From Sinohyriopsis cumingii (Eukaryota; Mollusca; Bivalvia; Unionida; Unionidae): a stretch of DNA of 64,000 nucleotides. The notes below the pieces were generated by a model, which searched no databases, had not been told where the DNA came from, and saw only the letters and a list, made by a program, of their open reading frames with translations. Shown here piece after piece: positions 6,755 to 24,660 of the stretch. Each line of letters opens with the position of its first letter. Position 1 is the first letter of the stretch. The position numbers and the translations under genes were made by a program. The DNA lies in the NCBI GenBank assembly GCA_028554795.2, contig CM068828.1:16934630-16998629 (forward strand), in the 5' to 3' direction.

Positions 6755-7084
6755 AGTAGTAATATGGGACAATCTAGGGACTATGGGACTTTAATGTTAA
6801 ACTAGGGAGTTTGTAACCTGGGGACTATGGGAATTTAACATGGGGCAATTTTACTTTGTAACCTGGGGACAATGGGAATTTAACATGGGGACAATGAATT
6901 GGGACTGTTTAGGGACAATGGAAATTTAACATGGTGGGACTGTCTAGGGACAATGGAAATTGAACGTGGGAAATGGATAGAACACAGACAATAGACAACA
7001 GACATTTAAAAAAAAACAAGAAATTTGGCATGAAAAGTCAATTTCTTTTCGAGGCATATGAATGGCCCTGAAAAGGGCCTTTGG
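6755..7084 (+). repeat. Left terminal inverted repeat of the Maverick
   Basis: It matches the reverse complement of 24615-24941 with roughly a dozen differences and a few small gaps. The outer two thirds are built of short sub-repeats around GGGACAATGGGAATTTAACA. The inner end carries the histone-type stem-loop at 7064-7079. Confidence 0.95.
7040..7079 (-). terminator. Histone-type 3'-end signal (stem-loop plus purine element), left TIR
   Basis: Read on the minus strand, GGCCCTTTTCAGGGCC (7079-7064) is a perfect 6-bp stem with a TTTC loop, matching the animal replication-dependent histone stem-loop. It is preceded by CCCAAA. After exactly 10 nt comes CTCGAAAAGAAATT (7053-7040), resembling a histone downstream element bound by U7 snRNA. 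The stop of the adjacent gene lies 37 nt upstream. Confidence 0.85.
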
Positions 7085-7115
7085 GTTTCTTCTTCTTCTT
7101 CTTCTTCTTCTTCTT

Positions 7116-7703
7116 CTATTTCCTCCATTTTTTAATCCATCCCCTTATCTTTCCCAAAATTCCTTTCTTCTTCGTCTCATCATTTTCCGGCATCCAGTCA
7201 GGGTGACCCATAGCCCTAAACTTCTGTTGGATCTTTATCCAGTTATGGTTCAGTTGCTCAAATCTTTCTTTTGTCTTTAGGTTTTCTCTTTCTTTCCTCT
7301 CCTTTGTCCACTTTTCTTTGATCTTCTTTACCTCTACCTCATAACTTTTCTCATTAATCCTCTCCTTTCTTCAGTCTGTCCAGACCCCTCTGCACATAAG
7401 AACACTCGGTCCCATACAACATATCTTCCAGAAAGCACCTGACTTTGCTTGCATTGTCAAGTGCTTCCTTTAAACTTCCCACTCTGACATAGGGGGATTC
7501 GTCAAACATCTCAGCCTCTTTTCATTCTCTTCTTTCATCCCTTCTACTAGGTCATTTGCTACGTTTAGGCTATTAGCATAGTCCAGGTACGCTGCTATCT
7601 TCCATTCATTTTCTAGCCTCTCCACTACATAGATAGCATCCATTATCCAATAGTATATATGTACCAAGTTGTTAAACAACTCTGTCACAGCCACCATCTT
7701 CAT
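7116..7703 (-). pseudogene. Accessory coiled-coil-type protein 1, broken frame
   Basis: No named family is recognised. The first frame starts at an ATG at 7703 (MKMVAVTELF) and runs to a stop at 7470. Coding-like sequence then continues in two further frames: one ends at 7354, and the last is a Lys/Glu-rich stretch with Trp residues ending at 7116. The intact length would be near 195 residues, mostly predicted helix. It is the first of three minus-strand units (with 8422-8894 and 9231-9596) that share a leader motif and a histone-type 3' signal. The upstream leader is at 7761-7787. The frame changes could be decay or sequence errors. Confidence 0.55.
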
Positions 7704-7760
7704 TGTCTTTATTCCGTAGAATGGCGCGAACGACAAACGCTTTGAGTTTTTATCTGGAAA

Positions 7761-7787
7761 GCACGGACGTGAAGGAAAACATCCCCT
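7761..7787 (-). promoter_or_regulatory. Conserved 27-bp leader motif, copy 1
   Basis: On the minus strand it reads AGGGGATGTTTTCCTTC then ACGTCCGTGC. The same sequence precedes the other two accessory genes (8958-8984, 9662-9688). It contains an ATG that opens only a very short frame in each copy, so it looks like a shared 5' leader or promoter element with an upstream mini-ORF. An AT-rich TATA-like stretch (GATAATATGAG) lies about 15-25 bp upstream. Confidence 0.6.
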
Positions 7788-7799
7788 ACTTTTCTCTTC

Positions 7800-8290
7800 T
7801 CATATTATCTACTATCCACACAGTAATGACTAGACAAATAACATAACCATAATATACTATCCACACAAGCGAAGCAGTAAAATCATAACCATAATATACT
7901 ATTCAGACACTTAAGCAGCATAAACATAACCAAAATATACTATTCACACACGGGAAGCAGCAAAATCAAACCCAAAATATACTATCAAAATACCCCGAAG
8001 CAGCAAAAGAAAAGTCATAATCTACTATACACACACGCAAAGCAGCAAAAAATAACCATAATCTACTATCCACACACGGGAAGCAGTAAAACAGAACCAT
8101 AATCTACTATTCACACACGCCAAGCATTAAAAAAAAAAAAAAAAAAATACCATCCACACAATAGGGAAGGTTTAATAACCACACACTTTACTATTCACAC
8201 ATACGTACTTTACATCTTACAAACCCTAATAATCTACTATTCACACAAACGTACGTTAGTTCTTACAAACACGAACACAAACACTCGCAA
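7800..8290. repeat. About 41-bp tandem repeat inside the Maverick
   Basis: Roughly nine imperfect copies centre on CTACTATCCACACACG followed by GAAGCAGTAAAA. The array fills the gap upstream (minus sense) of accessory gene 1 and includes a poly(A) run near 8130. It could be promoter or enhancer material, or simple expansion. Confidence 0.8.
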
Positions 8291-8358
8291 ATACACCAGG
8301 AAAAGGAGTGAGTGGTTTTTTTTACTACTCGACATTCACACAATGGCAATTTAAATAG

Positions 8359-8398
8359 TATCTCTTTTCTAGAACTTTGGTTAGCCCTGAAAAGCTGT
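8359..8398 (-). terminator. Histone-type 3'-end signal, degenerate stem, accessory gene 2
   Basis: Minus-strand ACAGCTTTTCAGGGCT (8398-8383) keeps the loop and 3' arm, but the 5' arm has mismatches. The purine block CTAGAAAAGAGATA (8372-8359) follows after the same 10-nt spacing as at the other four sites. The gene's stop is 24-25 nt upstream. Confidence 0.65.
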
Positions 8399-8421
8399 TT
8401 TTTAACTCCAGATGCACTGAT

Positions 8422-8894
8422 CTAATGCTGGCATCTCCCAGGCCTGGTACCGCAGACACATCTCCTACTCCATTCTCCTTCCAAGTTAACTATATTAGAT
8501 GGGAGTGCAGAGGCTGGATGGTTAGCCTCAGCACCCCAATCTTCACTTTCTGGGATTCGGAACACTTGTTGTTCCCTCTCGATTCTCCTGCGCTGCCAGA
8601 CCCTAGGATGGTGTAGTTGCGGCTGTTGTGCTGGTACCTGTGGTTGCGACTGTTGTGCTGGTACCGGCGCTACCTGTGGAGGTGCCAATGACTTCACCTC
8701 GTACACAAGTCTCATCATTATGTGAGACCTGATCCCACTCTTTTTTCTTCCTCTTGTTTCTTCCTTCTCTGTTCCTCCTCCTCTTTCATTCTGCCTCCTT
8801 CGACGATGGCCTCCGCTGCCAGCTCATTCAATAGACACCTGGCATATTCCAGGTGCATCTGGAGTTCTAACAGTTTTGCTAGTCTGATGCTCAT
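8422..8894 (-). pseudogene. Accessory coiled-coil/Pro-Gln-rich protein 2
   Basis: The family is unknown. ATG at 8894 opens a 58-codon frame (starting MSIRLAKLLEL, ending in a Glu/Lys/Arg-rich helix) that stops at 8718. The stop overlaps the ATG of a second frame as TAATG. That second frame (8718-8422) gives 98 residues rich in Pro and Gln (repeated VPAQQ) and Arg. The N-terminus resembles accessory protein 3 (MCSRLAKLNE). Either the two frames were one gene and a base was lost or gained, or they are coupled. A leader motif (8958-8984) and histone-type 3' signal flank it. Confidence 0.5.
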
Positions 8895-8957
8895 TTTCGT
8901 TCTTCACGAATCAAGAAGGGTAGCTAGACTGCCGACTGTTTTTGTATTATATGAAAA

Positions 8958-8984
8958 GCACGGACGTGAAGGAAAACATCCCCT
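8958..8984 (-). promoter_or_regulatory. Conserved leader motif, copy 2
   Basis: Identical to copy 1 over all 27 bases. TAATATAAGAG lies about 10-20 bp upstream and could act as a TATA element. Confidence 0.6.
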
Positions 8985-9154
8985 AGACTCAACTCTTATA
9001 TTACCAAGATCATTACCAAAAAACGCGCGAACCTAAAAGAAACACTCACTCACTTTTTTATACTAACCATCACTATTTTAACATTTTTACTAACCACTTA
9101 AAGAAAATGCTTATACTTATAATTTGTTCTAACATATCATAGGCAGTGGATTGT

Positions 9155-9194
9155 TATTTCTTTTCTAGAGTATGGGGTAGCCCTGAAAAGGGCT
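9155..9194 (-). terminator. Histone-type 3'-end signal, accessory gene 3
   Basis: AGCCCTTTTCAGGGCT (9194-9179, minus) forms a perfect 6-bp stem with a TTTC loop and is followed by ACCCCA, close to the usual ACCCA flank of histone stem-loops. CTAGAAAAGAAATA (9168-9155) follows after 10 nt. The gene's stop codon ends 36 nt upstream. Confidence 0.85.
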
Positions 9195-9230
9195 GGGTTT
9201 TGTGTGTGAACTTGAAGCTATGGAAATCTT

Positions 9231-9596
9231 TTAGGATCTAAGAGTGCGGCCTCCTCTGGCGACAGGCTTTCTCACAGGATAAGGCTTGCTTCTTCGGAAA
9301 GAGAAGGAGAACTCTTTGGTGTCGACACGGCAGTCGACAAAGCCTCTGTCAGGTTCCTGCTGCTGCTGCTGCTGTTGCTGCTCTCTCTGTTCTCTCTGCT
9401 GTTTCTGAAGTCTGTACTTCTCTGTCCATTCTTCTTTCTCCCTGTTAATTTCTTTTCAGAAGAGCTCTTCTATCAGGTCTTCAGTGACTTTTAACATTCT
9501 AACATTCTCTAACTCTTCCGGCTTCGGTATCAGACTTTGTCTGACACGATGCAAATTCACGTAGGCTTCGTTCAACTTGGCTAATCTTGAGCACAT
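9231..9596 (-). pseudogene. Accessory polyglutamine coiled-coil protein 3, one in-frame stop
   Basis: ATG at 9596 opens a frame of 122 codons that is continuous except for a TGA at 9458-9456 (codon 47). The first part is helical (MCSRLAKLNE start). The second part is Glu/Arg/Gln-rich with a short polyQ run, then an Arg-rich tail ending GGRTLRS. The family is unknown. The leader motif is at 9662-9688 and the stem-loop lies 36 nt past the stop. The frame is kept on both sides of the TGA, so this is a recent break, a readthrough site or a sequence error. Confidence 0.55.
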
Positions 9597-9661
9597 CTTC
9601 GTAAGAGGATGAGTCGAAAATGGATTGTCAAACTGGAGACTGTCCCGTTTCTATGGTCAAA

Positions 9662-9688
9662 GCGCGGACGCGAAGGAAAACATCCCTA
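9662..9688 (-). promoter_or_regulatory. Conserved leader motif, copy 3
   Basis: Matches copies 1 and 2 except for a few substitutions (GCGTCCGCGC instead of ACGTCCGTGC). Confidence 0.6.
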
Positions 9689-9818
9689 CACGGTTTTCGA
9701 GTCGGAACGCTAAATTAGTGTTATGTGAGGGATAGAGAGAAGTCAAAGAGCATGAATCATGATACCTATAGCATAACAAACGACAAAGGCATTTTTTCTT
9801 TCTTCAAAACACAACATT

Positions 9819-9824
9819 TTTATT
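9819..9824 (-). terminator. Poly(A) signal AATAAA
   Basis: A minus-strand AATAAA lies about 200 bp past the protease remnant, the last of the minus-strand core genes. It may end a shared transcript of that cluster. This contrasts with the stem-loop signals of the outer genes. Confidence 0.4.
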
Positions 9825-10009
9825 CAAAAATAACTCATCACTAACAAGTAACAAACATTTTTAACAATAACCATTCAATATAACATTAAACATTTTTTTC
9901 AACTAACTTTCTGTTTTGGACAGGGCTGACAACGTTGTGAATGAAACTGCGATTTCCACTGTTGGAAGTCATTGGGCTATTGATGGACACTACGTTTCCT
10001 AGCTAAAGA

Positions 10010-10468
10010 CAAAAGATAAGCATAATGGTCACAAAACCATCGATCTATTTTCTCATCGTTTCTAAAAGAATGACGATCAAAAATAAGTCACTAAATGTTC
10101 CAAAGAATATCCCAGACTGCGATGATGAAGAAAATACACACAATATTGTCCACACACCTAGGAATCTGTGCCTTGTAATTTCACATTATTGAATCGTGTG
10201 GTCTGAGCATTTCTTCTCATAAAGTCAATGATATCGTCTTCCAAAGGGGGCAATCCATACGTATCGAAATATTCCACACATCCTTCTTGAGGAAAGTACA
10301 CGGTTACCCAGTGGGTTCCTGGGAGATGACTGTCGTCCGTGTTGATCACATAAGCTTGATGGTCTTGATGTTGCGATGAGGGAGTTCATCTTTAGCTCAT
10401 ACGACATGATTCCAAGAAGCAGTGTACGAACTGTAGTTCAAAAGGTAATAAAGTTCCCAGGTATCCAT
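10010..10468 (-). pseudogene. Adenain-like cysteine protease (capsid maturation), broken
   Basis: The open piece (from 10349) contains GTHWVTVYF and VEYFDTYGLPP, the His and Asp blocks of the adenovirus-type C5 protease family that Mavericks use to process capsid proteins. A TAG at 10160-10158 interrupts the frame just before VCGQYC, which carries the presumed catalytic Cys. A frame change near 10350 separates the N-terminal part, whose first ATG (MDTWELYYLL) is at 10468, and further breaks lie after 10082. The His-Asp-Cys order is readable, but no intact enzyme can be translated. Confidence 0.85.
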
Positions 10469-10487
10469 GTTTGTGTTGTTTTTTTCT

Positions 10488-10988
10488 TCACAGGTGATAA
10501 TAAGTGATCAATTCGATCCTGATTTTCTCTTGGAAAATGTCTGACAAGTAAAGGGGTACGAGCTCCGACTTCGGACCCTGGTTCACGAGAGTTTCTATGC
10601 GACGGATCTGCAGAGGCGTTAATGGAGGAAAAGAATATTCAGGCAATCCTTTATACCACTGATCAAACACGAATTCTGTCTCGATGAGACTCCAATCTTT
10701 TTCCAGATACTCGTCCAATTTTTCTTCTTGACTCAGCATCGGACATTTATCGTGTTGAATTTGACTGGGATGATCGTTTTGACATCCATAGCAATCTTTC
10801 TTGATCAATTCCTTGATTTTGTCTCCAAGGACTGTAGCAAAACAGGAGCCTAAATGAGCTTCTTGTTCTGGCCATCTGGATTTCATCATGACTTCTTCGT
10901 CTTTGTTTTGGGATTCTTCTTTCATGGTCTCCTCACATTCCATGTCCAAAGTTTCTCCAGTAGGTAAAGAGGGATAACAGTCTTCCAT
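10488..10988 (-). CDS. Maverick conserved protein with Cys/His cluster, unknown function
   Basis: Open from an ATG at 10988 to 10488 (166 residues). The centre carries CYGCQNDHPSQIQHDKC, a Cys/His cluster that could bind zinc, preceded by an ATVLGDKIKELIKKD helix. The N-terminus is acidic (Glu-rich). I recall similar cluster-bearing proteins near capsid genes of Mavericks, but no function is known to me. It sits 5 bp after the major capsid frame and just before the protease. It is one of the few unbroken genes of the core cluster. Confidence 0.7.
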   Translation of the reverse strand: MEDCYPSLPTGETLDMECEETMKEESQNKDEEVMMKSRWPEQEAHLGSCFATVLGDKIKELIKKDCYGCQNDHPSQIQHDKCPMLSQEEKLDEYLEKDWSLIETEFVFDQWYKGLPEYSFPPLTPLQIRRIETLVNQGPKSELVPLYLSDIFQEKIRIELITYYHL

Positions 10989-10993
10989 AGCTT

Positions 10994-12310
10994 CTAATAG
11001 TCTAGAATGACTTCTCTCAAAGTGTTGATTTCTATCGTATTGTCAAATTCGGCATACAGGATGACGTTCACCGTTACATCAGGGTCTCGGTTCGCAAACT
11101 GAAGTTCCACAGGAATCTGGCCGGATTTTATAGGGTGGAAATGTCCCTCGTCGCTGCCTTGGTCTGCAGTGAAATCAAAAGCCCACAAAGCATAGCCTCC
11201 TGCATAATCCTCGTACGATATGCCGTGACTGGTGTTGGTTCCTAACTGTCCGGTAGCTTTGTACAGGGACAAGTACGATCTCAAATAATTCTTCTGGGCA
11301 AAATTAGGCTCAAAGGGTCGGGTACACAAGGTCTTGCCATCGCGACTGACTTCGATCTTGGACACGTCAAAGTGTCGAAAGTTGAAAGGATTTTTATCGA
11401 CAGCTCCGTTGAAGGCAGTATTCTCGACGATACCTAGGATTAAACGTTTGGGTAACTGTCCTTGGAACAGATGATCTTCGATCATGGATCGCTGCCCTCT
11501 GGGAATGTGAAGGTTTTCACTTCCACGCGACGTATTGGATACTTGACGGTCGTTCTGCTCAACGTGTGACTGATGTCGTTTCCCACTTTAGGTAACACTT
11601 CCACGCGTCGCACGTAAAGTCCGGCTTCTTGGATGACAGTTTTGTAATCGTTAAAATTAGACAACAGATGGAAAGTGGTACTGACTACGATTCAGTCTCA
11701 GGCGGACATCCACTCCGTTCAGCAAATACTTCTCTTGCAACCACATGTCCAAATGCAAACGAGCTATCAGTTCTAAACTACGGCTTAGTGCAATTTTCTT
11801 TCTTCGTTCTATAAATCCCGATAAATTTTGAGTATCCCCATCAATCGTAGTGCTGTCGAACTTTGCACCTAATGCGTCAGGCTTCCATACCTCGCAAGCA
11901 TCCAGATGGGTGTCCTTGGCCTCTATTCCGTACGTCAAGAGATTTTCCAGGTACGCTCGGTAAGGGTAAGTATCCATGCTGCTGCTGACCAGTTTGTTAT
12001 TCAAATACAAGTCCACTCCACTGAACAAGGAATGCATGAAATTGTTGACGGGAGCTACTTTGGACGTATCAGTTAGAGGGCCACCGTCCGCTTTGGTTAC
12101 TTTGACTTTCAAGTACAAGTAACTGCTATTCAGATCGATGTAATCTTCGGGCTGTCCTTTGATTTCAAACTCGATGGGAGCGGAATCCGTCAAAGAGGAA
12201 ACGGGATGTAATTCGACCGATTGGGATTCTTGCATCGTCATCATGGTAGGTGGCATGGCAAACAGAACCAGTTCCGACTTGGAACAGGTGCAAGACTCTC
12301 GGTGCATCAT
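10994..12310 (-). pseudogene. Major capsid protein (double jelly-roll, adintovirus/Maverick type), two frame changes
   Basis: Three open pieces read consecutively: 12310-11657 (217 residues), 11664-11482 and 11485-10994 (163 residues). They contain MHSLFSGVDLYLNNKLVSSS, TYPYRAYLENLLTYG, YLLNGVDVRLRLNRS, QLPKRLILGIVENTAFNG and NVILYAEFDNTIEI, all hallmarks of Maverick capsid proteins often labelled F54H12.2-like in animal annotations. The protein forms the icosahedral shell. The frame changes near 11660 and 11490 shift out of and back into the starting frame, so each is probably a one-base event. Length would be about 435 residues, normal for the family. Confidence 0.92.
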
Positions 12311-12347
12311 TTTTTCTGTTTCTCAATAATTTAATAATCGAAAACGT

Positions 12348-13715
12348 CTAAGTCTCTGACGGTTCGTCTTTTCTTAGTCTTTCTAGCTTTAGAAGTGTGA
12401 AGTCTTTTGAAGGGGTGTTTTTTCGTCGTCTCTTTCTGCATTGTCCTTGCTGTGGCTTCAGGGAAACGGGAATGCCTGACTCGGAAGCGTTCAGGGCATT
12501 TATAGACGTTTCTCGTCGGCCCAAAATGTCTTTGCCTGTTTGCAGCAAGACATTTTTGCCTGCTCTTAAGAAGGCTTCTTTAGGGTTTTGTTTGTCGATG
12601 ATGACATTTTGGAGAAATTCTTTACCGTGTGTCAATGCGGCATCTTTCAAGGCGTGCAATCCTCGAGTCACCATTGGTTTCAACACCGGAGCCACTGAAT
12701 GAAAGGCTGATTTTAACATATCTCCTAAGTCGTGTCCTCGCTGTCGATCAACGCCTCGGTACACTGGATACATGACTTTCGAGTCATTTGAGAACCGTTT
12801 TCGAAAATGAAGTTTCACCGTGACTTTCCCTTTGGTGAACGAAATATTTTGTCCCAGATCTCCTTTTATAGCAATGTTGACAGTGTCCAAATACGACTTG
12901 CTGACGGGCAAATAGTGAGGACGTACAAATTCGCGGTGTACGTGATAAGTGTTTTCACCTTCCGCGTCAGCGTTTTTGGCAGAATCCACTTTGAAAGGAA
13001 TGACACGCAGTAATGGTACGGAGGTGTGTCCCACCACGTTGTACTCCACCACATCGGAGTACACAAAGATCAAACTCAGTCATTGGTTCAGTTCTATTGG
13101 GGCACGAAAAAACTTGGCCAAAAGAATATTTGTCGGAAATGACTGCTATTTCGCCTTTCTGATCTACTCTCTTTCTCATCTCCATGTCTCCGCCCAACAT
13201 GGCAAACAATTCAGGACAAAATAAAAGTGACAACACTTTGTTCCCCTCAGGAAATTTCATCAGGAGGCGACGAGCTACTTTATGGTACTGAAGGGTGACA
13301 CTTTTTTTGACACTCTCCAAAGCTTTAAGAAACACGACATTAAACCTGGATGCAACGGTGCTCACCAAATGTTGTCCGCTAAAATAATAGCCTGGAGGAA
13401 TGAACAAGTGATAGGTGGTCGACTTTTGAGTTTTTGTGCTAGGGGTTTTCTTATCATATTTTACATTGGTATCAAAGTACTGTTGCATTTGCTCGTCATG
13501 AACTTCCACCGTAAAAAAAAAATTTGATTGGTAAGGACATTGAGGACTTTGGTCGGGTGAATGATTTCCACCAAAGCCACCTCCCAATGGGCTTCGTGAT
13601 CTAATTGGATGGCCTGAGGTAATTTGGCCGTGAAACAGCACAAAGTGTTGTTGGGAAACACCTCCATGGAACTGTCACTGGGTAAGGTTAAGTAAAATTG
13701 GTTATGTTGGCTCAT
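12348..13715 (-). pseudogene. Penton-like minor capsid protein with basic C-terminal tail, two frame changes
   Basis: The frame opens at 13715 (MSQHNQFYLTLPSDSS), changes near 13515 at a long A run (plus strand), continues to about 13080, then changes again into 13073-12348. Recognisable blocks are LDHEAHWEVALVEIIHPT, YHLFIPPGYYFSG and DVVEYNVVGHTSVPLLRV, then FTKGKVTVKLHFRK, typical of the Maverick penton (single jelly-roll vertex protein). The last 110 residues are helical and then strongly basic (QCRKRRRKN), possibly an added DNA- or membrane-binding tail. The gene starts inside the stop of the membrane-protein gene (ATGA overlap at 13712-13715). Confidence 0.88.
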
Positions 13716-14128: not shown

Positions 14129-15232
14129 TTCTTTTTATAGTCGATGACTTGAGAAGCTTCGATCCAAGAATCAAAACTGGGTGGATATCCTTTCCAACTT
14201 ACTTTGACCTCTTTGACACGTCGTTTGCCTACTTGACGGGTTCTGCGTTCGAGAATGCTTTCGATGTCGTACACGTCGTCTTCTTTTTTGGTGTCACGTT
14301 GTAACTCAGGCAAGTCAAACGTTCCTTTTAACACTTCTCCGTTCATATCTTCCAATTTATAGACGGCAGGATGACGACCATGCACTCGTCCAGTGACACG
14401 AAACACTTAGGTGGTCCAGTTAGGTAAGTAACCTTTGTCGAAAGTGCGTTTGGTTTTGCCAATGCGCACCCAATCTCCTACGGTCAACACTCCACTTTTC
14501 TTGGGGACAGCCACCGTCGTGGACGTACCAAACAGGCGATCAGAAACCAGCACTTCGTTGTCGGGAGTGACCTCTTGCGGGGCGCGTCCAATGTTTCGAT
14601 GGTAAGATTGGTTGTCCGCTTGCACTAGGTGCGGTAAGATGTCGATGTACTTCAGAGTGTGGTGATGCGTACAATATTTCCACATGCGTTCTTTCAAAGT
14701 GCATTGAAAATGTTCCACGATGCTGGCTTTGGTTTCAGGATTCTCGGTGGTAAAAAGATGAATGTCACGTTTCTTTAATTCTCTTTGGAAAGCTTGGTTC
14801 AGAAATTCGGTACCTTTGTCCGTTTGCCATCGAAGAGGGTGACGACCACTTTGTTTCAACACCCATTGCAGGGATCGCACTAGCTCGTTGCTCGATTTGA
14901 AGTCAATGCCACAACCCAAGCAAATTTGGAAAAGACATCGATGGCACAAAACAAATATTTGTAGCCGCGATTGTAGCTGGCCAAATGAGAGACATCGGCT
15001 AAATCGGCTTGCCATTGATGATCGATGCCTTTCACTTGGGTACGACTTCTGGAAAACTTGCGTCGAATGGGTTTGTGTAAAGTGTAGGAAGCTTGTTCTT
15101 GTAACCATCGTTTCACTTGAGGTAAACGGAGACTTTTCAGAGAGTTTTGGCAGCACGATACAATTTGTGAACTCCTCCGTAACCTGCAGGATGTGAGGGA
15201 TCGTAGTAAATGCTGGCTAGCACCTTTTCCAT
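14125..15232 (-). pseudogene. RVE (retroviral-type) integrase with C-terminal chromodomain, broken
   Basis: Starts MEKVLASIYYDP at 15232. Two frame changes (around 15175 and 14890) and an in-frame TAA directly before 14406 break it. The DDE core is visible: WQADLADVSHL (first Asp), WQTDKGTEFLN (second Asp) and KASIVEHFQCTLKERMW (Glu). The final 93 codons form a chromodomain (VYDIESILERR, VKVSWKGY, DSWIEASQVI), which in this family is thought to steer insertion to methylated-histone chromatin. The integrase would insert the linear genome via the TIRs. All catalytic residues are still encoded, but in three separate frames. Confidence 0.92.
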
Positions 15233-17164: not shown

Positions 17165-17497
17165 TAGGATCCCATCTTAAGAGGGAGCGAATGATGACAC
17201 CTCCTTGAGTACCACTCCATCCAGGTTTCAAAATGATTTGCTTTTGGTTTGAGTATCGATGCGGGGATCGGCCAGTTGGGTCAAAGCTACTTTGTTCCTA
17301 TCAAAAAAGCGTTGGGTTTGATAAGGAATCTGAATGATACCTTGCAGTTATTGACGTGCTGTCACCGTGAACCATCGTAAGACTTCTCTGAGATTGGCTT
17401 CTAAGACACGAGCACGTATTTGTGGATTTTTGTCGCGACTGATGCCATACAAGGCACGAATCAATTTGACGGGAAGATGAGACGGAAGGGACGTCAT
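17142..17497 (-). pseudogene. Maverick small protein, unknown, in-frame stop and frame change
   Basis: ATG at 17497 gives MTSLPSHLPVKLIRALYGIS and a helical start. A TAA at codon 50 (near 17350) is followed by further coding-like sequence in the same frame (IPYQTQRFFDRNKVALTQL). A frame change near 17235 leads to a C-terminal block (IILKPGWSGTQGGVIIRSLL) ending at 17142. No family is recognised. A TATA box at 17535-17542 lies 38 bp upstream, supporting an independent gene. Confidence 0.45.
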
Positions 17498-17534
17498 GTT
17501 AAGACTGTCTGAGACAGACGAAAAGTGTTTAAGG

Positions 17535-17542
17535 TTTTTATA
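17535..17542 (-). promoter_or_regulatory. TATA box
   Basis: TATAAAAA on the minus strand, 38 bp before the ATG at 17497 and just past the packaging ATPase stop. Confidence 0.6.
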
Positions 17543-17554
17543 GATTTTTTGGGG

Positions 17555-18281
17555 TTAAGTCAAGGACAGAGACGTGTACAGGACAGGCCCTACAACTTGA
17601 CACCAGTGGTGAAACAATTGGGTACGAAATCGCAAATAATCGGGGGTAGTGGGTTTCAAATCGGCGAGTAAATAGGCGTGTGGAGTTTCAGTGGCATCGT
17701 CGTACGCCTGAGTCAGCCAAGGCGTTCCTAACTGTTTGGCTAAGACTTGCACTTGCGATTTATCTCGAGCGCTTTTAAACAAGACCACGTAATGAGCATT
17801 GAGACTGATGGTGCGATGGGCTTTACTTTGTTGAAAGAAATTTTGAGTGATGTAAATGACACTAGCATTACGATGATGCCCTTTGCGCGTAAACCCCTCT
17901 TAATTTCTTCTTCGTCTTCTCATAACATGTCGTCGAAAATGACCAAATGGGTTTGATTGGAGTCAGATTGGATTCCATCGTCTTCGTTAGGAATGCCTTC
18001 CACAAACACTATGGAATCACCTTGACTTCCTCGCAAAAGGCTGTACGCCGATTGCCACTCTTTGTAACACCACACGATGCGTTGAGGTGGACGATTTTCA
18101 AATGATGTTTATGTTCGATCAAAGGTTTGACAAATTCGGTTTTGCCTGAACCGCTAGGTCCAGCAATGAGCATGTTAAAGGGATGGCGAAGATACAAAGC
18201 CTCCCATCTGGCACGATCTAAGTGTTCGTCGATGACTTTGCAAGTGGAGGAAGAGGGAGCAGAGACAGTAGAGGTAGCCAT
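17555..18281 (-). pseudogene. Packaging ATPase (FtsK/HerA-like, A32 type), broken
   Basis: The frame from 18281 encodes the Walker A motif GPSGSGKT (residues 41-48) within FNMLIAGPSGSGKTEFV. It leaves frame near 18080. A Walker B-like segment HLVIFDDML is readable at about 17947-17923 in another frame, followed at once by a TGA at 17922-17920. The C-terminal part (VLFKSARDKSQVQVLAKQL onwards) is open in 17788-17555. This ATPase family drives genome packaging into capsids. At least three breaks make it non-functional. A TATA box sits 47 bp upstream. Confidence 0.88.
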
Positions 18282-18327
18282 AGTGTCAGGAATGTCACTT
18301 GTGACACTAAAACAGACAAGACAAGAG

Positions 18328-18336
18328 TTTTTTATA
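18328..18336 (-). promoter_or_regulatory. TATA box for packaging ATPase
   Basis: Minus-strand TATAAAAAA, 47 bp before the ATG at 18281. Confidence 0.6.
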
Positions 18337-18352
18337 CTTTTTTCAGGACACG

Positions 18353-18358
18353 TTTATT
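18353..18358 (-). terminator. Poly(A) signal of the small membrane gene
   Basis: Minus-strand AATAAA starts 6 nt past the stop of the 64-residue gene and sits between it and the next TATA box. Confidence 0.5.
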
Positions 18359-18364
18359 GATGTT

Positions 18365-18559
18365 TTAAAAATGAATACGAAAGACAAAAATACATAAAAG
18401 CCAAATGCTTAAGTACAATAATAAAATGCACATGAAAACGATCAACGTGGAATAGAAACAAGTTTCTGTACAACATGTTTTGGGTAATGTTCTGACAAGT
18501 TCAACAAGGGGTAAAGTCACACAAGTGCGATCCCGAAAGGTTCTTTCAGGAATGTCCAT
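18365..18559 (-). CDS. Small C-terminally anchored membrane protein, unknown
   Basis: 64 residues: a polar N-terminus (MDIPERTFRDRTC) and a single long hydrophobic C-terminal segment (LIVFMCILLLYLSIWLLCIF) ending FRIHF. The topology suggests a tail anchor. No family is recognised. Support for a real gene is the compact placement between neighbours, the AATAAA directly after the stop and the absence of stops, unlike nearby frames. Confidence 0.5.
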   Translation of the reverse strand: MDIPERTFRDRTCVTLPLVELVRTLPKTCCTETCFYSTLIVFMCILLLYLSIWLLCIFVFRIHF

Positions 18560-18636
18560 GACAGTCCTGTCCTGGATGACGGATTCTACTTAGGTACTGT
18601 CACTAACACATGTTGAAAAGTGACTGAAAGGAAGGA

Positions 18637-19090
18637 TCACAACTCTCGATCATACTGGGCCACTTCTTGGGTCCAAGCCTCAAAGCCCCATTTTTTTCCA
18701 GGCACGAACATCTGTCCAATGGGGGTGTAAGTCACAAGCTACACACACATCGTCATACGCGTCTTCGGTAGCTAAAAGTTGACGAATCTTTTTTTTCCCG
18801 TAGAGGTCGAGAAGTATGAAGATGAAATCGCAAGGCTTTGAGCAAAATTAGTCTCTCGTGAACATTTAAGGCCATTCGGGTGGTAAGTACTGTTCGTAAA
18901 GAGTCCACAAGGAATCGGCTGGTAAACGAAATTCCAGAAAACAAGTCACTAAGACACACACCACTTGTCGTCCCAAATTGAACGGAAACAGTTGTCGTAC
19001 TAAGTGCTGGTAATCTTCCATGGTTTGAATATTGTCATTGAGTTCCTTCCACGGAATCTGTTGAATCACTTGTGATAAAAGCCGTGGCAT
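18637..19090 (-). pseudogene. Maverick accessory helical/Cys protein, two frame changes
   Basis: The frame from 19090 (MPRLLSQVIQQIPW; alternative ATG at 19021, MEDYQHLV) gives LFPFNLGRQVVCVLVTCFLEF and SLWTLYEQYLPPEWP. It changes frame near 18870, continues through LLKALRFHLHTSRPLREKK and then VCVACDLHPHWTDV, changes again near 18690 and ends at 18637. The CVACDLH part could bind metal. No family is recognised. The TATA box at 19100-19107 is so close to the first ATG that the internal ATG may be the true start. Confidence 0.45.
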
Positions 19091-19099
19091 GGCAGCCTG

Positions 19100-19107
19100 T
19101 TTTTATA
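19100..19107 (-). promoter_or_regulatory. TATA box
   Basis: Minus-strand TATAAAAA just upstream of the 19090 frame. The spacing favours translation from the ATG at 19021. Confidence 0.5.
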
Positions 19108-19195
19108 CTCTCTTTTTTCGGAAGCAATAAATGTACTGTCTACATAGAGATGATTTTACTCCAGTAGTGAATCTAAATTGTTTAGTCACTAATTT

Positions 19196-19556
19196 TCACA
19201 TCACAGTTCGTTCAGAAGTTTCCTCTTTCACTAAATTGACATTGTGTAAAAGATTTTGGCAAGTCTTTAACTCTTCCTCTGGAACTCGATGCAGTAAGTT
19301 TACATTGTAAGAAATATAATCATCAATAGCAAACCCATCCTTTAAACCAAGGGGTAGTTGATGAAGGTCTGACCAATGGAACACTTTCTCATGAATCAGT
19401 CCTCTTATAACATTCAGGTACCAGTGGTTCAAAAGACTGGTGACGTTACGGATGCAATTGTTCTTCACGTGTCTCTTGTATTTTGACCAGTTCTTGGTAA
19501 ATGCGTTCTCTCAACTCGACAGGTAAACCACGAATGTTCTCTTGTAAAGTATCCAT
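19196..19556 (-). pseudogene. Accessory protein with F-box-like N-terminus, one frame change
   Basis: ATG at 19556 opens MDTLQENIRGLPVELRERIY, where LPxELRxxIYxEL resembles the start of an F-box helix. The frame then changes near 19470 into the 19468-19196 frame (LPLGLKDGFAIDDYISYNVN, then Glu/Leu-rich). No family is certain; the F-box suggestion is weak. It lies directly downstream of the first BIR gene (8 bp gap) and may share its transcript. Confidence 0.4.
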
Positions 19557-19563
19557 TCAAGGA

Positions 19564-20211
19564 TTACTGATATTGTCCTACTAAAGGTAAATAGTGACAA
19601 CTGGGAGACCATCGAGCATATTTCAGGTAGGCCGAATCTTGTGGTTCCCAGTGGTGAAGTGACACACCGCAACTGAAGCACTTGACTTTATCCCCTTCGC
19701 CCAAGTAGAAAAATCCGGCTCTGGCTAATTCTTCAGGGGTTGGTCCTCCCAGATACTTAGGCCATTTTCCTTTGAACGATTGAAAACGATTTTCAAAGTT
19801 GCAATATTCAGAAACACGCACAGGAAACGAATATTCGTCTTTCACAGGTTCGTTTCGATGAGGGCAGGGTGACATTGACAGGAGTTTGCTCAGGGCTGGA
19901 TTACATCCGTAGGGTGGGAGACGTGAAGGTTGACATCCACATTTACCATGAAACCCAGTAAAGTGTCCTCGATAAGGAACAGCATCGCTTTCGCATCCAT
20001 CAGGTTTGACACGTACAACATCACTTTCCATGATAGGGGTTGTGGTAGTAGTAGTGAGAACAATGTTCCCATGATGCTTTACTGCATCACTGAGGTCAAA
20101 GCGTACAGCATCGCTCACATCGCAATGCTCAGCGTCGCATTCCACTTCAGAGGCCCCAAAATTGAATTGTGATTGTCTGAACTTGTTTTGTGTTTCTCTG
20201 AAAGTATTCAT
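19564..20211 (-). CDS. BIR-domain protein 1 (inhibitor-of-apoptosis type)
   Basis: Intact 215-residue frame. Residues about 135-210 form one BIR domain: a WPKYLGGPTPEELARAGFFYLG block, then C178-x2-C181 (CFSCGVSL), HHWEPQDSA and WSPSC with C205. The histidine expected in the C-x2-C-x16-H-x6-C zinc set is a tyrosine here (Y198), so zinc binding may be weakened. The N-terminal 130 residues are Asp/Val-rich and unrecognised, and no RING is present. BIR proteins bind caspases or other death-pathway partners; malacoherpesviruses and some insect viruses also carry them. A TATA box lies 56 bp upstream. Confidence 0.88.
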   Translation of the reverse strand: MNTFRETQNKFRQSQFNFGASEVECDAEHCDVSDAVRFDLSDAVKHHGNIVLTTTTTTPIMESDVVRVKPDGCESDAVPYRGHFTGFHGKCGCQPSRLPPYGCNPALSKLLSMSPCPHRNEPVKDEYSFPVRVSEYCNFENRFQSFKGKWPKYLGGPTPEELARAGFFYLGEGDKVKCFSCGVSLHHWEPQDSAYLKYARWSPSCHYLPLVGQYQ

Positions 20212-20266
20212 CTTGTTGGTTTCGTCTTGGTAGTCACAATAAACTATCGATCTTGCCTATGGTCTC

Positions 20267-20274
20267 TTTTTATA
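20267..20274 (-). promoter_or_regulatory. TATA box for BIR protein 1
   Basis: Minus-strand TATAAAAA, 56 bp before the ATG at 20211, overlapping the 3' end of BIR gene 2. Confidence 0.65.
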
Positions 20275-20749
20275 CTAGTCGCAATGACGTCTCAAGCTTG
20301 TACATCGTTCCTTTCTTATGTCTAGTTTTGGAAGCATTCCTTTTTTTCTTCTTGGACAACGGTACTACCTTCTCTAAGGTACCGTCATAATTGTATCGTA
20401 GTGTAATGGGTGGAAAGGCCATAGAAAGGTAAGGACAGTGCGGAGACCATCGAGTATGTTCCAGAATAGCTGAATCTTTATAGATACATAGGTCCATTCG
20501 TAACTTCAGACCACAACTGAAACACTGTACTTCGTATCCCAATCCAGTCTCAGGTCCCAAGTAGACAAATCCTGTTCTAGATAAAACATTCAAAGTAGGT
20601 AATCCTTCCCTGTCTGTGGGCCATTTTTGAAACGTTTCCAATCGACGGGCACAATCACAATAGTCAGGCAAGAAGACCGGAAAATGGTAGGGTTTGAACT
20701 TGGAGTTCTCATTGGGTCTCTCACTCGATTCTTGCTGTGGCAAAGTCAT
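20270..20749 (-). CDS. BIR-domain protein 2
   Basis: Intact 159-residue frame with one BIR domain (about residues 28-110): ARRLETFQKWP, LSRTGFVYLG, C76-x2-C79 (CFSCG), H98 and C105 in EHTRWSPHC. All four zinc ligands are present, though the C79-H98 gap is 18 rather than 16 residues. The C-terminus is basic (LSKKKKRNASKTRHKKG), a possible nuclear signal. It is tandem and divergent from BIR protein 1, probably an old duplication. There is no RING domain. A TATA box lies 36 bp upstream. Confidence 0.88.
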   Translation of the reverse strand: MTLPQQESSERPNENSKFKPYHFPVFLPDYCDCARRLETFQKWPTDREGLPTLNVLSRTGFVYLGPETGLGYEVQCFSCGLKLRMDLCIYKDSAILEHTRWSPHCPYLSMAFPPITLRYNYDGTLEKVVPLSKKKKRNASKTRHKKGTMYKLETSLRLV

Positions 20750-20772
20750 TCTTCTGGTGAGTGGCTATCCTC

Positions 20773-22710
20773 TTACAACCAATGTTTTATACCAACATGT
20801 CCATATGGCAAAGTAAAGTGATTGGGAAGACGCACTCGCTTCTGGTACACGATTTGATAGACTTTTTCCAAGGGTCGACTGACGATTTGGTGAGTGGGTA
20901 AACGTACAATCTTGTTCGGTTCACGGGTGATCACTTTAAAGTTTTCATCCTCTCCAGACTGAAAGGCTTCTTTCAATACGCCAAAGTTCACCACTCGACT
21001 GGTACGATAATTTAAAGTCAACCCTTTCACTTTACTCTCCGTGTGCACTTCTCCTTGTTTGTCCCGGTATTCGTAGCCGTTATTTTCAGGACCGCCAATC
21101 GCGAAACTTAGAATTTTGTCGTCGGGGTGCTCGTCTGTTCAGGCTCCGAAACGGTCTCCTTCGATGTTAGGGTGATGTTGACCCGTGTTAAAGTACAGGA
21201 CGCGTTCCTCTAACAGTTCTAAAGCTTCGTACAATTTTAAGCGAGTATGAGCTGTCACGTAAGCCGCAATGATGACATTTCCAAATGCGTCGGCTTCTAC
21301 AAAGTCCAGATCTTCTTCGTAACTGACCAAGATCAAATCCTCACGAAACATGTAGCACTGGTGTTCCAAGTCCACGATTTATTGACAGATATGACATTTT
21401 TTCTTTCCTCGACATATGTGTGCCTTGGCATTATTGGTACGTATGCCTTGTCCACACGTAGGGCACAATCTCAGGAGTTGACAAGCACATTTCTGTTGTG
21501 AACCTTGCGCCTTTAGATGTTGTTGGTAACAGGCAGGGCTGACAAACGTGCGCAGACAAGCTGGACAATGCACTCGTTCTTGTCCTTCGTCCAGACAGAG
21601 TTGAGAGGCCAAACATCCTGAGCATTTAGATCCACAATGTTTGTGTTGCTCTCGATTGTTATAGTCATAGTCACATTTCTCACAGTAATAACCGTATCCC
21701 ATGAATCCAGTGATACTGGTAATGGTATCGAAATGTTCTTCGTGATGATAGAGAGGAATGTGTTTTCCGTCCTTAAAGTCTTGGCCTCGAAACAACAGAG
21801 GTCCGCGCACTTCTCGAGGGTGCACTTTCAAGGTGTAGCTTGGAGCTAGGGCATCTTGCAATTTTTGCGTCTCAGGAATACCACAGGGTGTGTCTTTGGA
21901 CAGCCCAGCTTGTTGTAACAGGAGTTCTGCTTCACTTCGTTGTTTGGCTTGGTCCGATTTTCGAATGTTCTCCCAGGCTCTTTTCCATTCTACCGTGTCG
22001 TTCTTCTTGACATACGTTCGTCCCACCACGATAGCCCTGTCTAAACACATCTGGTCCTGAGGGTTGTTAATTTGGACGAGGCTTGTTTTGGTGCTGCGAA
22101 GGTCGTTCACCAATAACACCTTTTTACGTTGTCCGGTCCCTTGAGGAGGAGAGACGTGGGTCATGAACAGTGTAGCTTTTTCATCGGTGATGTGAAACTG
22201 GTCATTGGATTATTGCACGTGTTGAATCTTGTCCATGACTTTGGAAGGGGTTAATTCTGCGGGCCTTCTAAACTCGATCCAAACAGGGGATTTCAAACCG
22301 TCGTGTTGTATGGAAAGTCTCAAGCGATCGTCTTCTTTGGCTTGACATTGTCTCTTTAGTGTGGTGAGCAAAGAATCCCACATCTCGGTGATGAACCCTT
22401 CTGCTTTCTCCAACGGTACGTCGGACTTGAAATCTTTAAATTTCACCCTGAAAGTGTAAGCTGTGGTTCTAAATTTTCTAGAGGAGCGCTTTTCCGTCTC
22501 TCGAATGTGATAGTAGTTTTCAGGGTTGACTAAGGGTGATGAAGTTTGGTTAGATATAGACTCTCTGGGTCTGGATTTTGGTTCACTCATGTCCTCTTCA
22601 AAATCACTGGCATGAATTTGTACCAAGACTTCAGCGATGGTACGAGACGATAGATCACGTTTCTGCCTCATACTTTCTTCTTTCTTCTCGAATTGATTCG
22701 ATTGTTTCAT
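20773..22710 (-). pseudogene. Protein-primed DNA polymerase B, catalytic core deleted, three in-frame stops
   Basis: A single frame of 646 codons with TAA at 22212-22210, TAA at 21381-21379 and TGA at 21141-21139. The N-terminal part has the Maverick PolB zinc-rich region (YYCEKCDYDYNN, CSGCLAS, VHCPACLRTF, CPTCGQGI, CHICQ). Directly after VDLEHQCYM the sequence jumps to REDLILVSYEED and NVIIAAYVTAHTRLKLYEAL, which normally lie just before palm motif C; that site reads VLYFNTGQ. No exonuclease, SLYP or NSxYG block is visible, so several hundred residues are missing at about 21365. The C-terminal part (GLTLNYRTSRVVNF onwards) is present. This enzyme would replicate the linear genome. Confidence 0.88.
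20785..20791 (-). promoter_or_regulatory. TATA box for BIR protein 2
   Basis: Minus-strand TATAAAA, 36 bp before the ATG at 20749, within the end of the polymerase frame. Confidence 0.6.
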
Positions 22711-22781
22711 CTTGACTGCAAAAAGTCAAATGACTACATGTGAAACACCATGGGTCACTTTATATTCATAACAAACCAGCG

Positions 22782-22793
22782 TATATATAAAAG
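22782..22793 (+). promoter_or_regulatory. TATA box for zinc-knuckle protein
   Basis: TATATATAAAAG, 53 bp before the ATG at 22846. It sits in the 135-bp gap between the divergent polymerase and zinc-knuckle genes. Confidence 0.7.
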
Positions 22794-22845
22794 ACGTGTG
22801 TCTTGTCCTTCCGCTATTCATTTCACTCTCAAACTGAACAAAACG

Positions 22846-23292
22846 ATGGAAAAGACTACACAGATCGAACTTTTCATCAGCGCTTTGCGAGGGGTCATCA
22901 GAAAATTTTCTTCAGACAAGCCGACAGTCTACACACCGTCCTTTCGAGATAAAAGTCAAGATACTTGCTATATCTGTAAGAATAAAGGGCACTGGTCTTC
23001 AGATTGTCCAGACCGTCAAAAAAGCAAAACAGGAACTAGAAGAGACAAAAGTCAAGATACCTATTATCATTGTCAAGAAAAAGGATATTGGTCTCCAGAT
23101 TGCCCTAAGAAACAACAGGAGCAAGAAGTAGAGAGGAATTATGAAGAGGAAGAAGAGGCAGCCTCCCCCAAGGAAGAACCCAGACATGTGCAGAAAGAGA
23201 AACAGGAGAAGAAAAGAAGAAGGAGAGAAAGTGAGGAAGAAATGGAGGAAAAAACTGTGAAAGTGAAGAAATTCATAAAACAGAGAGAGTGA
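22846..23292 (+). CDS. CCHC zinc-knuckle protein with acidic/basic tail
   Basis: Start chosen at 22846 because it follows a TATA box; the open frame upstream lies before the expected cap site. 148 residues. A canonical CCHC knuckle is at C41-x2-C44-x4-H49-x4-C54 (CYICKNKGHWSSDC). A second copy after RDKSQDT has Tyr for the first Cys (73) and for the His (81), keeping C76 and C86. The repeat RDKSQDT before each shows internal duplication. The tail is Glu-rich, then Lys/Arg-rich (EKKRRRRESEEEMEEK). It probably binds nucleic acid. It is divergent from the polymerase gene and one of only two plus-strand genes of the element. Confidence 0.78.
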   Translation: MEKTTQIELFISALRGVIRKFSSDKPTVYTPSFRDKSQDTCYICKNKGHWSSDCPDRQKSKTGTRRDKSQDTYYHCQEKGYWSPDCPKKQQEQEVERNYEEEEEAASPKEEPRHVQKEKQEKKRRRRESEEEMEEKTVKVKKFIKQRE

Positions 23293-23510
23293 AGACAGAC
23301 ACAGAAGAAGCTAATGAACTTTTTAATGTGTTACGTTGTGATTTGAATTGTAAAAAATTAGTTCCAGAATAGACAGTCTTTAAAATGTAAGTGTCTCTTG
23401 GTTTTGATTTTTTGAATAAGAATCTACAATCACGCACTTACACATTCACACGTACCATAAGGGTAAAAAAGGGATTTTTGAGTTTTAATTGATGTTGGCA
23501 ATTGAAATAG

Positions 23511-23550
23511 TATCTCTTTTCGAGAGAAATGGATGGCCCTGAGAAGGACC
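23511..23550 (-). terminator. Histone-type 3'-end signal, right-side coiled-coil gene
   Basis: GGTCCTTCTCAGGGCC (23550-23535, minus) pairs along all six stem positions, one as a T-G wobble. It is preceded by CCCAAA and followed after 10 nt by CTCGAAAAGAGATA (23524-23511). It lies 66 nt past the gene's stop. The compensated stem change argues that the structure is kept by selection. Confidence 0.8.
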
Positions 23551-23615
23551 TTTGGGATATTTGTTGATTAAAACAATCAACTTTAACTGTCTTACGCCTT
23601 TGCCACGGCCAAGGC

Positions 23616-24161
23616 TTACTTCAGACTGCGTACTGTCGATGATGATTTGGTAGAAATCACTAAGGGTGGTATGGTAGGTATAGTCACAGGGTTAGGTTGT
23701 TTAGCTCGGGAAGGTCTTTTTCTCTTCGGTCGTAATAAAGAAGTCTGATACATTTGTTTCAGACTTCTTAACTCCGCTAAAATGCCTAACAGTACCGTAA
23801 CGGTTTGACTTTCACCCCCTTGTTTCTTTACTGCTTCTTCTTCTTTTTGTTTTTTTCTTACCTCTTCTACTTGCTGCTGTTGCTGTAGGAGAAAAGCTTG
23901 TTCTGCTTCCTTTTGCTGCTGTATAAATTTCTCCAATTCTTCTTTCTGTCTCTGTTTAAAATTCTCCACGTGTGGTAAAGAAGAAGGCGGCGAAGGTACT
24001 GGTTCCTGAACAAATTCTTGTGAGGTAAGAAAATCCACAATATCCCAATTTAAATTCACCTCTTCTGGAAGTATATCCGGGTTCCCTTGGGTAGTCTCCA
24101 CGGCCGGTGCACCCCAATTCATCGTCTTCTGAGTTTCCGTCATGTTTGAAAACTGTCGCAT
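23616..24161 (-). CDS. Accessory glutamine-rich coiled-coil protein
   Basis: The frame is open from 24176. I choose the ATG at 24161 (MRQFSNMTETQK) because the TATA box at 24191-24197 puts the cap site near 24165; 24143 is also possible. About 181 residues: an acidic N-terminus with PDILPEEVNLNWDIVDF, then a long coiled coil rich in Gln, Glu and Lys (FLLQQQQQVEEVRKKQKEEE), a Leu-rich helix (VTVLLGILAELRSLKQMY) and a basic Pro-rich tail (RPKRKRPSRAKQPNP). The family is unknown; a transcription-factor-like or scaffold role is possible. It is intact and ends before a histone-type stem-loop. Confidence 0.65.
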   Translation of the reverse strand: MRQFSNMTETQKTMNWGAPAVETTQGNPDILPEEVNLNWDIVDFLTSQEFVQEPVPSPPSSLPHVENFKQRQKEELEKFIQQQKEAEQAFLLQQQQQVEEVRKKQKEEEAVKKQGGESQTVTVLLGILAELRSLKQMYQTSLLRPKRKRPSRAKQPNPVTIPTIPPLVISTKSSSTVRSLK

Positions 24162-24190
24162 GGACTGACTGCGCACAAACGCTAGCGACT

Positions 24191-24197
24191 CTATATA
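24191..24197 (-). promoter_or_regulatory. TATA box for right-side coiled-coil gene
   Basis: Minus-strand TATATAG, about 30 bp before the ATG at 24161, next to a TGACGTCA palindrome at about 24207-24214. Confidence 0.55.
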
Positions 24198-24310
24198 GGA
24201 AATGTGACGTCACAGACTGCTCTCTTCGGATTGGACGTGGGGTGCCTGAATTTTGTAACGCGTGTTTGGATTAGTCAATGATTTCATTCCGTTTCGATCC
24301 TCCCTTTCCC

Positions 24311-24318
24311 TATAAATA
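24311..24318 (+). promoter_or_regulatory. TATA box for rightmost gene
   Basis: TATAAATA preceded by a C-rich stretch, 43 bp upstream of the ATG at 24361. Confidence 0.7.
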
Positions 24319-24360
24319 ACCGCAGTTCGCTGCATTCTTTCACCTGTTCTCGTCACCAAG

Positions 24361-24660
24361 ATGTGGACCGACGTGGAATCCTCTACTTTAGTCTCTTCAA
24401 TGCTGTTCAGGTCGGACTTACCGATGGATGTCCGATCCTCGTGGACTATTGTCAGGATGAGATACAAGCGTGTGGAAGAGCAGAATCTACGTAGAAAGGC
24501 AAGGATGTTTAAAGAAGGTTTTAATTTACGGCCCAGAAGTGAGACAGAGTTTGAGGAAAAGAAGAAGACCAATGCCATGCCCTCTATGTTAACATGGAAT
24601 AAGGTTAACATAAACCAAAGGCCCTTTTCAGGGCCATTCATATGCCTCGAAAAGAAATAG
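24361..24660 (+). CDS. Rightmost accessory protein, unknown
   Basis: Starts MWTDVESSTLVSSMLF at an ATG with good TATA spacing. The middle is basic and helical (MRYKRVEEQNLRRKARMF), and the C-terminal 20 codons read through the histone-type stem-loop in the TIR. In the other three accessory-protein units the stem-loop follows the stop, so here the original stop has probably been lost by a frame change and the true end lies near 24600. The family is unknown; composition is like the left-end accessory genes, so it may be a relative on the opposite strand. Confidence 0.5.
   Translation: MWTDVESSTLVSSMLFRSDLPMDVRSSWTIVRMRYKRVEEQNLRRKARMFKEGFNLRPRSETEFEEKKKTNAMPSMLTWNKVNINQRPFSGPFICLEKK

Follow-up and report, generated by a model that had tools for sequence, protein, structure and literature searches.

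Histone-type 3′-end signals and histone promoter elements at accessory genes of a decayed Maverick/Polinton-like element in the bivalve Sinohyriopsis cumingii

Replication-dependent histone genes of animals are marked by a 3′ stem-loop (Rfam family Histone3, RF00032) and a histone downstream element and served by the stem-loop binding protein (SLBP) and the U7 small nuclear ribonucleoprotein (snRNP), and their messenger RNAs (mRNAs) are described in PMC12775136 as the one class of animal mRNA without poly(A). In mammals, U7 pairs with the purine core AAAGAG, and the cut falls between the stem-loop and the purine element, at a fixed distance from the latter (stated in an excerpt of PMC7026596). 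The other described systems to which our locus compares are the Maverick/Polinton elements and the adintoviruses, the latter defined by a PolB with an N-terminal OTU-like domain in the part of PMC11071296 used here, which mentions histone-like proteins and not mRNA ends. In a literature search that was incomplete, we found no report of viral genes with histone-type mRNA ends, Mavericks and adintoviruses included, and such gene ends set the present element apart from that group. Here we describe a stretch of 64,000 nt from the genome of Sinohyriopsis cumingii (assembly GCA_028554795.2, contig CM068828.1, positions 16,934,630 to 16,998,629 of the forward strand), referred to in full as the window. 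It contains a decayed Maverick/Polinton-like endogenous DNA virus with five accessory genes, which we designate A, B, C, R and T.

We consider it highly likely, on the sequence evidence set out below, that all five accessory genes end in the histone-type 3′ signal of the host, that the promoters of A, B and C carry host histone elements, and that the transcripts would be processed by SLBP and U7. The five viral genes would then probably be expressed like histones, during the copying of the cell's DNA. The genes and their signals are located in the window as follows, with the basis of each assignment in brackets.

7119..7703, minus strand: gene A, broken in the window copy (open pieces 7473-7703 and 7119-7370; open frames)
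7064..7079, minus strand: A stem-loop GGCCCTTTTCAGGGCC (Rfam, core pattern)
7040..7053, minus strand: A downstream element CTCGAAAAGAAATT (core pattern)
8425..8895, minus strand: gene B (open pieces 8721-8895 and 8425-8823; open frames)
8383..8398, minus strand: B stem-loop position ACAGCTTTTCAGGGCT, stem broken, three of six pairs (core pattern; elsewhere, 8/12 copies of gene B have exactly AGCCCTTTTCAGGGCT)
8359..8372, minus strand: B downstream element CTAGAAAAGAGATA (core pattern)
9234..9650, minus strand: gene C (open pieces 9459-9650 and 9234-9455; open frames, other copies)
9179..9194, minus strand: C stem-loop AGCCCTTTTCAGGGCT (Rfam, core pattern, other C copies)
9155..9168, minus strand: C downstream element CTAGAAAAGAAATA (its CTAGAAAAGA core is that of host H3, H4, H2B and H1)
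23616..24161, minus strand: gene R, 181 aa, with a long predicted helix and a basic stretch (open frame, structure prediction)
23535..23550, minus strand: R stem-loop GGTCCTTCTCAGGGCC, loop UCUC (Rfam, core pattern)
23511..23524, minus strand: R downstream element CTCGAAAAGAGATA (core pattern)
24361..24660, plus strand: gene T, its frame crossing the stem-loop in the window copy (open frame)
24620..24635, plus strand: T stem-loop GGCCCTTTTCAGGGCC (Rfam, core pattern)
24646..24659, plus strand: T downstream element CTCGAAAAGAAATA (core pattern)

The initial annotation had proposed these five sites, and a check of the window showed its coordinates to be correct throughout and the 16-nt stem-loop position to be separated from the purine block by exactly 10 nt at 5/5 sites. 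Its argument that chance was an unlikely source also held: 200 windows simulated with a first-order Markov model gave an expectation of 0.005 core-pattern matches per window, versus five seen, every one within the element. Rfam scored the Histone3 family above its gathering score of 34 bits at 24615-24660 (plus strand, 36.0 bits) and 7039-7084 (minus strand, 35.4 bits), and below it at 23511-23555 (minus strand, 28.5 bits) and 9154-9199 (minus strand, 26.9 bits).

Other parts of that annotation had to be narrowed or extended. Of the five stem-loops, four are listed by Rfam; the one at the 8359 site is broken in the window copy, with three of six stem pairs and no Rfam match even at E ≤ 10, and its purine block is intact. 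The signal does recur at five sites, two of which, those at 7040 and 24620, are not independent: they belong to the two terminal inverted repeats and so duplicate one another. Four sites had been described as just past a gene; in fact each of the five follows a gene in the sense direction, the T frame being the one that runs across its stem-loop. As for the flanks said to fit, CCAAA stands before the stem at A, R and T alone, and ACCCCA after it at C alone.

The signal is also present in other copies of the element. A Histone3 search of the host genome (2.905 Gb in 1138 contigs) scored 75 of 589,472 candidates, 75/75 over the cut-off. None of the window's own sites is in this list, which is thus a lower bound. 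All of the top 30 of these 75 loci (30/30) proved to be termini of other element copies, in which tblastn matched A, B, R or T. Allowing two substitutions, 64 stem-loop matches were found in them, of which four were dropped (three without an upstream element gene and one not forming such a stem), leaving 60 sites: 12 after A, 12 after B, 16 after R, 19 after T and one unclear. The stem-loop is exactly GGCCCTTTTCAGGGCC at 12/12 A, 19/19 T and 12/16 R sites, and exactly AGCCCTTTTCAGGGCT at 8/12 B sites. ACCCA, the usual cleavage-side flank of the histone stem-loop, stands directly past the stem at 12/12 A, 16/19 T, 13/16 R and 11/12 B sites. The 30 sites other than the Rfam match itself were detected with a 16-mer pattern allowing two substitutions, which strongly decayed sites would escape; six pairs are kept in 24 of them and at least five in all 30. 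Within these Rfam-chosen loci the signal follows 12/12 B genes and 16/18 R genes. The longest frame starting with ATG ends before the stem-loop at 19/19 T, 16/16 R, 11/12 A and 9/12 B sites, some frames being shortened; because the T frame stops before the stem-loop in all 19 other copies, the read-through in the window is probably decay of the window copy.

A second survey was made blind to the signal. Searching the host genome with the R protein scored 150 of 24,761 candidates, all with E < 5e-81 and the window copy included, and 20 were sampled at about every seventh row of these 150 best, taking a 250-nt stretch spanning each 3′ end. All 20 have a site, with no more than three substitutions, 76–111 nt past the match; six pairs are kept in 15/20, at least five in 17/20, and the purine block is within one mismatch in 20/20. 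Gene C copies gave a similar picture, with a site in 12/12 of those fetched (at least four pairs, purine block within one mismatch) and six pairs in 9/12. Within this genome the signal follows the same genes in nearly all copies examined. We further note that the 150 scored R matches, many with open frames, represent a large expansion of the element in one animal genome.

Taken together, the 30 loci (60 sites), the R sample (20) and the window (5) give 85 element sites. Six pairs are kept in 73 of them and a UYUN loop in 83; the distance from the stem-loop to the start of GAAAAG is 13 nt in 72 and 12 nt in one, the other 12 having no exact GAAAAG. The outer stem pair differs on both sides between genes, being GC in 64 and AT in 13 of the 85, which may reflect few events.

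The host's own histone genes allow a direct comparison. They occur in tandem arrays (~8.3 kb) with H3, H4, H2B, H2A and H1, and in the three stretches fetched all five genes have Histone3 stem-loops over the gathering score, at 35.0–39.4 bits. The spacer between stem-loop and downstream element is 10 nt in H3, H4 and H2B and 11 nt in H2A and H1, placing the start of GAAAAG 13 and 14 nt after the stem-loop, respectively. The downstream element reads CTAGAAAAGA in H3, H4, H2B and H1 and CCCGAAAAGG in H2A. Measured against CTAGAAAAGA, 13 of the 85 element sites are identical, 52 are one base off, 15 are two off and five are more distant. The reading of the element's sites as histone-type 3′ ends is thus supported by the host, whose five histone genes share with them the kind of stem-loop, the spacing (10 or 11 nt) and the downstream element.

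The likeness can be followed at the level of whole 3′ ends. The 3′ end of R in the window (23500-23562) aligns with that of host H2B over 63 nt at 81% identity, gapless, with E = 6.7e-12, and the resemblance continues beyond the purine block into a TTTCAAT-like stretch found in several host histone genes. For 59 element stretches, the mean local score exceeds all 200 shuffles against H2B, H2A, H1 and H4 and all but seven against H3; the shuffle preserves base content only, and the H4 slice was positioned some bases off. BLASTN of element ends against the histone repeat gave 306 matches on the five 3′ ends and 117 on promoters, with two weak ones in coding sequence; the remaining matches are scattered, mostly at 8.4–8.9 kb of locus L077.

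In the window, histone-type promoter elements were located upstream of A, B and C, together with a near-match to a host H4 promoter sequence.

7758..7783, minus strand: histone-type promoter element upstream of A (26-nt repeat D10, host promoter comparison)
8955..8980, minus strand: histone-type promoter element upstream of B (host promoter comparison)
9021..9038, minus strand: TTTTAGGTTCGCGCGTTT, differing by one mismatch from the 18-mer of the host H4 promoter (promoter comparison)
9659..9684, minus strand: histone-type promoter element upstream of C (host promoter comparison)

The 26-nt element of the window differs from the host H2B promoter at 4/26 positions and from the host H1 promoter at 5/26, compared with best values of 10 and 9 mismatches, respectively, in 300 simulations of matching dinucleotide composition. 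When as many as six substitutions are allowed, 34 occurrences are found in 13/30 loci, before A and B, often repeated and near TATA-like sequence, and the element stands upstream of gene C in 10/12 C copies. In five loci the element motif equals the host H2B promoter over 24 nt; BLASTN of other element copies likewise aligned 24/24 nt with the H2B promoter and 22/22 nt with the H4 promoter. The H4 promoter 18-mer, TTTTAGGTCCGCGCGTTT, is exact in 2/30 loci in addition to its one-mismatch form in the window. The CGTCCGC core is similar to the site of HINFP, a histone factor of vertebrates. Separately, R and T diverge from a short common promoter region (24162-24360) in which TATATAG and TATAAATA boxes and a CCAAT-like motif can be recognised by eye.

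The element thus resembles animal replication-dependent histone genes in its UYUN-loop stem-loop, in the ACCCA flank of most copies and in a purine block at the host spacing, and it carries promoter elements of host H2B, H1 and H4. It differs from them in that its genes have no real likeness to host histone proteins (best blastx E 0.037) and sit in a mobile viral element. What we observe directly is the sequence, geometry and positions of the signals, their recurrence over copies and the match to host histone genes at both ends.

From these observations we infer the following course of expression, in which SLBP binding, U7 cleavage, the lack of poly(A) and the S-phase timing are parts of the model. 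The A, B and C promoters would be recognised and fired by host factors responsible for S-phase histone transcription. With the GAAAAGA block and SLBP as guides, the U7 snRNP would cut the transcripts a few nt past the stem-loop; AAAGAG is found in the window's B and R downstream elements. The products would be short mRNAs without poly(A), made and kept mainly during DNA copying. Whether these genes make up a wider pseudo-histone regulon, that is, regulatory genes with histone promoters and 3′ ends, made at histone locus bodies with DNA replication and without the poly(A) machinery, and matched to the signal versions of the host lineage, is in our estimate about evenly balanced. If the proposal is true, it would give a DNA virus a new route to couple expression to S phase, provide natural non-histone clients of SLBP and U7, and offer a directly testable account of gene timing in such elements. 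With so many copies in one genome, RNA tests are practical.

Gene R has features that would suit a nuclear regulator. Structure prediction returned one long helix with low-confidence ends (mean predicted local distance difference test score, pLDDT, of 66), and the protein contains the basic stretch PKRKRPSRAK. A zinc-knuckle protein, also part of the element and encoded on the plus strand (22744-23289), is convergent with this gene.

Several observations weigh against histone-type expression of these genes, or against its reach. The R genes in two of the 30 loci (L025 and L039; 2/18 R genes) have no recognisable signal, and 7/12 A sites were assigned by position only, their upstream gene having no tblastn match to window A. 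Among promoters, host H4 matches the 26-nt element only at nine mismatches, where simulations reached seven; host H3 has neither this element nor the H4 18-mer; the only copy upstream of host H2A is weak, with seven mismatches, and oppositely oriented; and R and T have no copy of the 26-nt element within six mismatches. Around the sites AATAAA shows no depletion (10/60, compared with 81/510 background stretches), and it lies close to the stem-loop in 6/16 R sites, where it is possibly a back-up poly(A) signal. Our search for the host U7 RNA did not identify it, the best Rfam match reaching 29.3 bits against a cut-off of 34. Finally, in 17 aligned R regions the stem-loop (0.949) shows no clear excess of conservation over the preceding untranslated region (UTR; 0.940, or 0.935 with gaps), and with gaps counted the coding part (0.873), the two downstream parts (0.687 and 0.845) and the spacer (0.794) all fall under the stem-loop. 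Because the copies are close relatives and the stem-loop is no more conserved than the UTR before it, conservation among R copies by itself proves no selection; an ungapped first look had favoured such proof, which the alignment against the neighbouring UTR did not bear out. As a separate observation, the A slot in loci L013-L042 may hold different genes behind the same signal, given the seven sites without a match to window A.

One alternative is that the element captured a histone-gene promoter and 3′ end once and spread by duplication, its transcripts now being polyadenylated and the signals carried as passengers. We judge this unlikely. It would accommodate the 63-nt likeness to H2B, which reaches beyond the known signal, as well as the R stem being no more conserved than the UTR before it and the AATAAA near 6/16 R sites; it fits less well with unlike genes sharing mainly two blocks at fixed spacing. 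Across window A, B, C and R, the values are 0.77 in the stem-loop and 0.87 in the downstream element, compared with 0.47 in the spacer, 0.52 in the next 15 nt and 0.27–0.35 in the other flanks. The change of the outer stem pair on both sides between genes, though maybe through few events, and the six pairs kept in 73/85 sites also speak against passengers. A covariation analysis of 28 rows (20 R sites, three window sites and five host histone genes) found two pairs changed on both sides, a value reached in 5/500 shuffles and weak when taken alone.

Far less probable is that stem-loop and purine block act on DNA, in replication, packaging or transposition, and merely resemble a histone signal. 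Two of the five window copies do lie at the inner edge of the terminal repeats; the three others are internal, all five are sense-oriented after a gene, and the resemblance is to host histone genes, at their 3′ ends and promoters. Chance or sequence bias, which could draw on nothing beyond an A/T-rich purine block, is refuted in practice by the 0.005 sites expected per window, by the site in 20/20 sampled R genes and 12/12 C genes and by the six-pair stem forming in 0/12 loose-core loci of the IMG/VR database.

Processing by SLBP and U7 is the preferred reading. As candidates for the host U7 RNA, seven matches to TCTTTTCTAG plus an Sm-like site were unconvincing, and the hairpin of one of them (L083) is weak. 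Another of the seven, L080, was rejected as a U7 candidate, reading by eye as an antisense histone-like 3′ end; Rfam found neither U7 nor Histone3 in L080 or L083. A looser pattern gave 233 matches, and among the matches listed, 20 that were chosen by eye to skip obvious repeat families and fetched included none that convinced; a comparison by eye with U1 promoters was of no further help. In its own right, L080 has at ~1500 a decayed histone-like stem-loop and downstream element, antisense and away from the fetched arrays (by eye; Rfam silent).

Outside this genome we searched IMG/VR for relatives, and none was confirmed by three scans with single proteins or by two with alignments. The strict stem-loop pattern had 0 matches there, and the loose core gave the 12 loci mentioned above. 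The sole trace outside the host genome is P0177, a metagenomic protein related to R (71% identical); its frame continues into WPISGPPTSLEKRYYVNCQFQ. Judged by eye, this extension would fit read-through of a stem-loop and purine block with one stem change. Among the 16/19 R homologues aligned, P0177 alone runs on in this way.

The element itself is delimited and classified by the following features.

6755..7087: left terminal inverted repeat, with the A stem-loop at its inner edge (repeat matches I1, 265 nt at 96%, and I2, 77 nt at 96%)
10997..12322, minus strand: putative major capsid (hexon) pieces, 10997-11587 and 11660-12322 (homologues of piece 1; piece 2 by eye)
14410..15216, minus strand: rve integrase (Pfam, below cut-off; relatives with rve and chromodomain)
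18012..18353, minus strand: FtsK/A32-type ATPase piece, 114 aa (Pfam, below cut-off)
24612..24941: right terminal inverted repeat, with the T stem-loop at its inner edge (repeat comparison)

Long terminal inverted repeats and an rve integrase whose relatives have a chromodomain are shared with Maverick/Polinton elements and adintoviruses; the hexon-like pieces and the FtsK/A32-like ATPase piece would be further common features. The first hexon-like piece (10997-11587) has 43 homologues, among them the oyster protein P0136 at 52%, and the second (11660-12322) corresponds by eye to the front of P0130; we take these pieces to be hexon and the 43 homologues to be Maverick capsids, and Pfam gave no capsid match for the window's hexon-like piece. 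In the broken integrase open reading frame (ORF) of the window, rve was matched at E 0.0015 with 19.1 bits against a cut-off of 32.6, and of its 583 homologues the nearest two (85 and 82% identical) have PF00665 together with PF00385. No DNA polymerase domain was matched by Pfam in the three open pieces searched at 20776-22725, where the frames are broken, and no clear target-site duplication was seen at the element ends. For the label Maverick/adintovirus first given to this element, Maverick/Polinton-like is the safer name; adintovirus is not established, with no recognised DNA polymerase domain in the three pieces searched.

Two neighbouring genes of the element encode BIR-domain (inhibitor of apoptosis) proteins, at 19567-20256 and 20273-20764. 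Just outside the element, a satellite array of ~390 copies of a 30-bp unit occupies 26661-38424, and an ORF at 47670-49070 encodes a leucine-rich-repeat protein of 466 aa.

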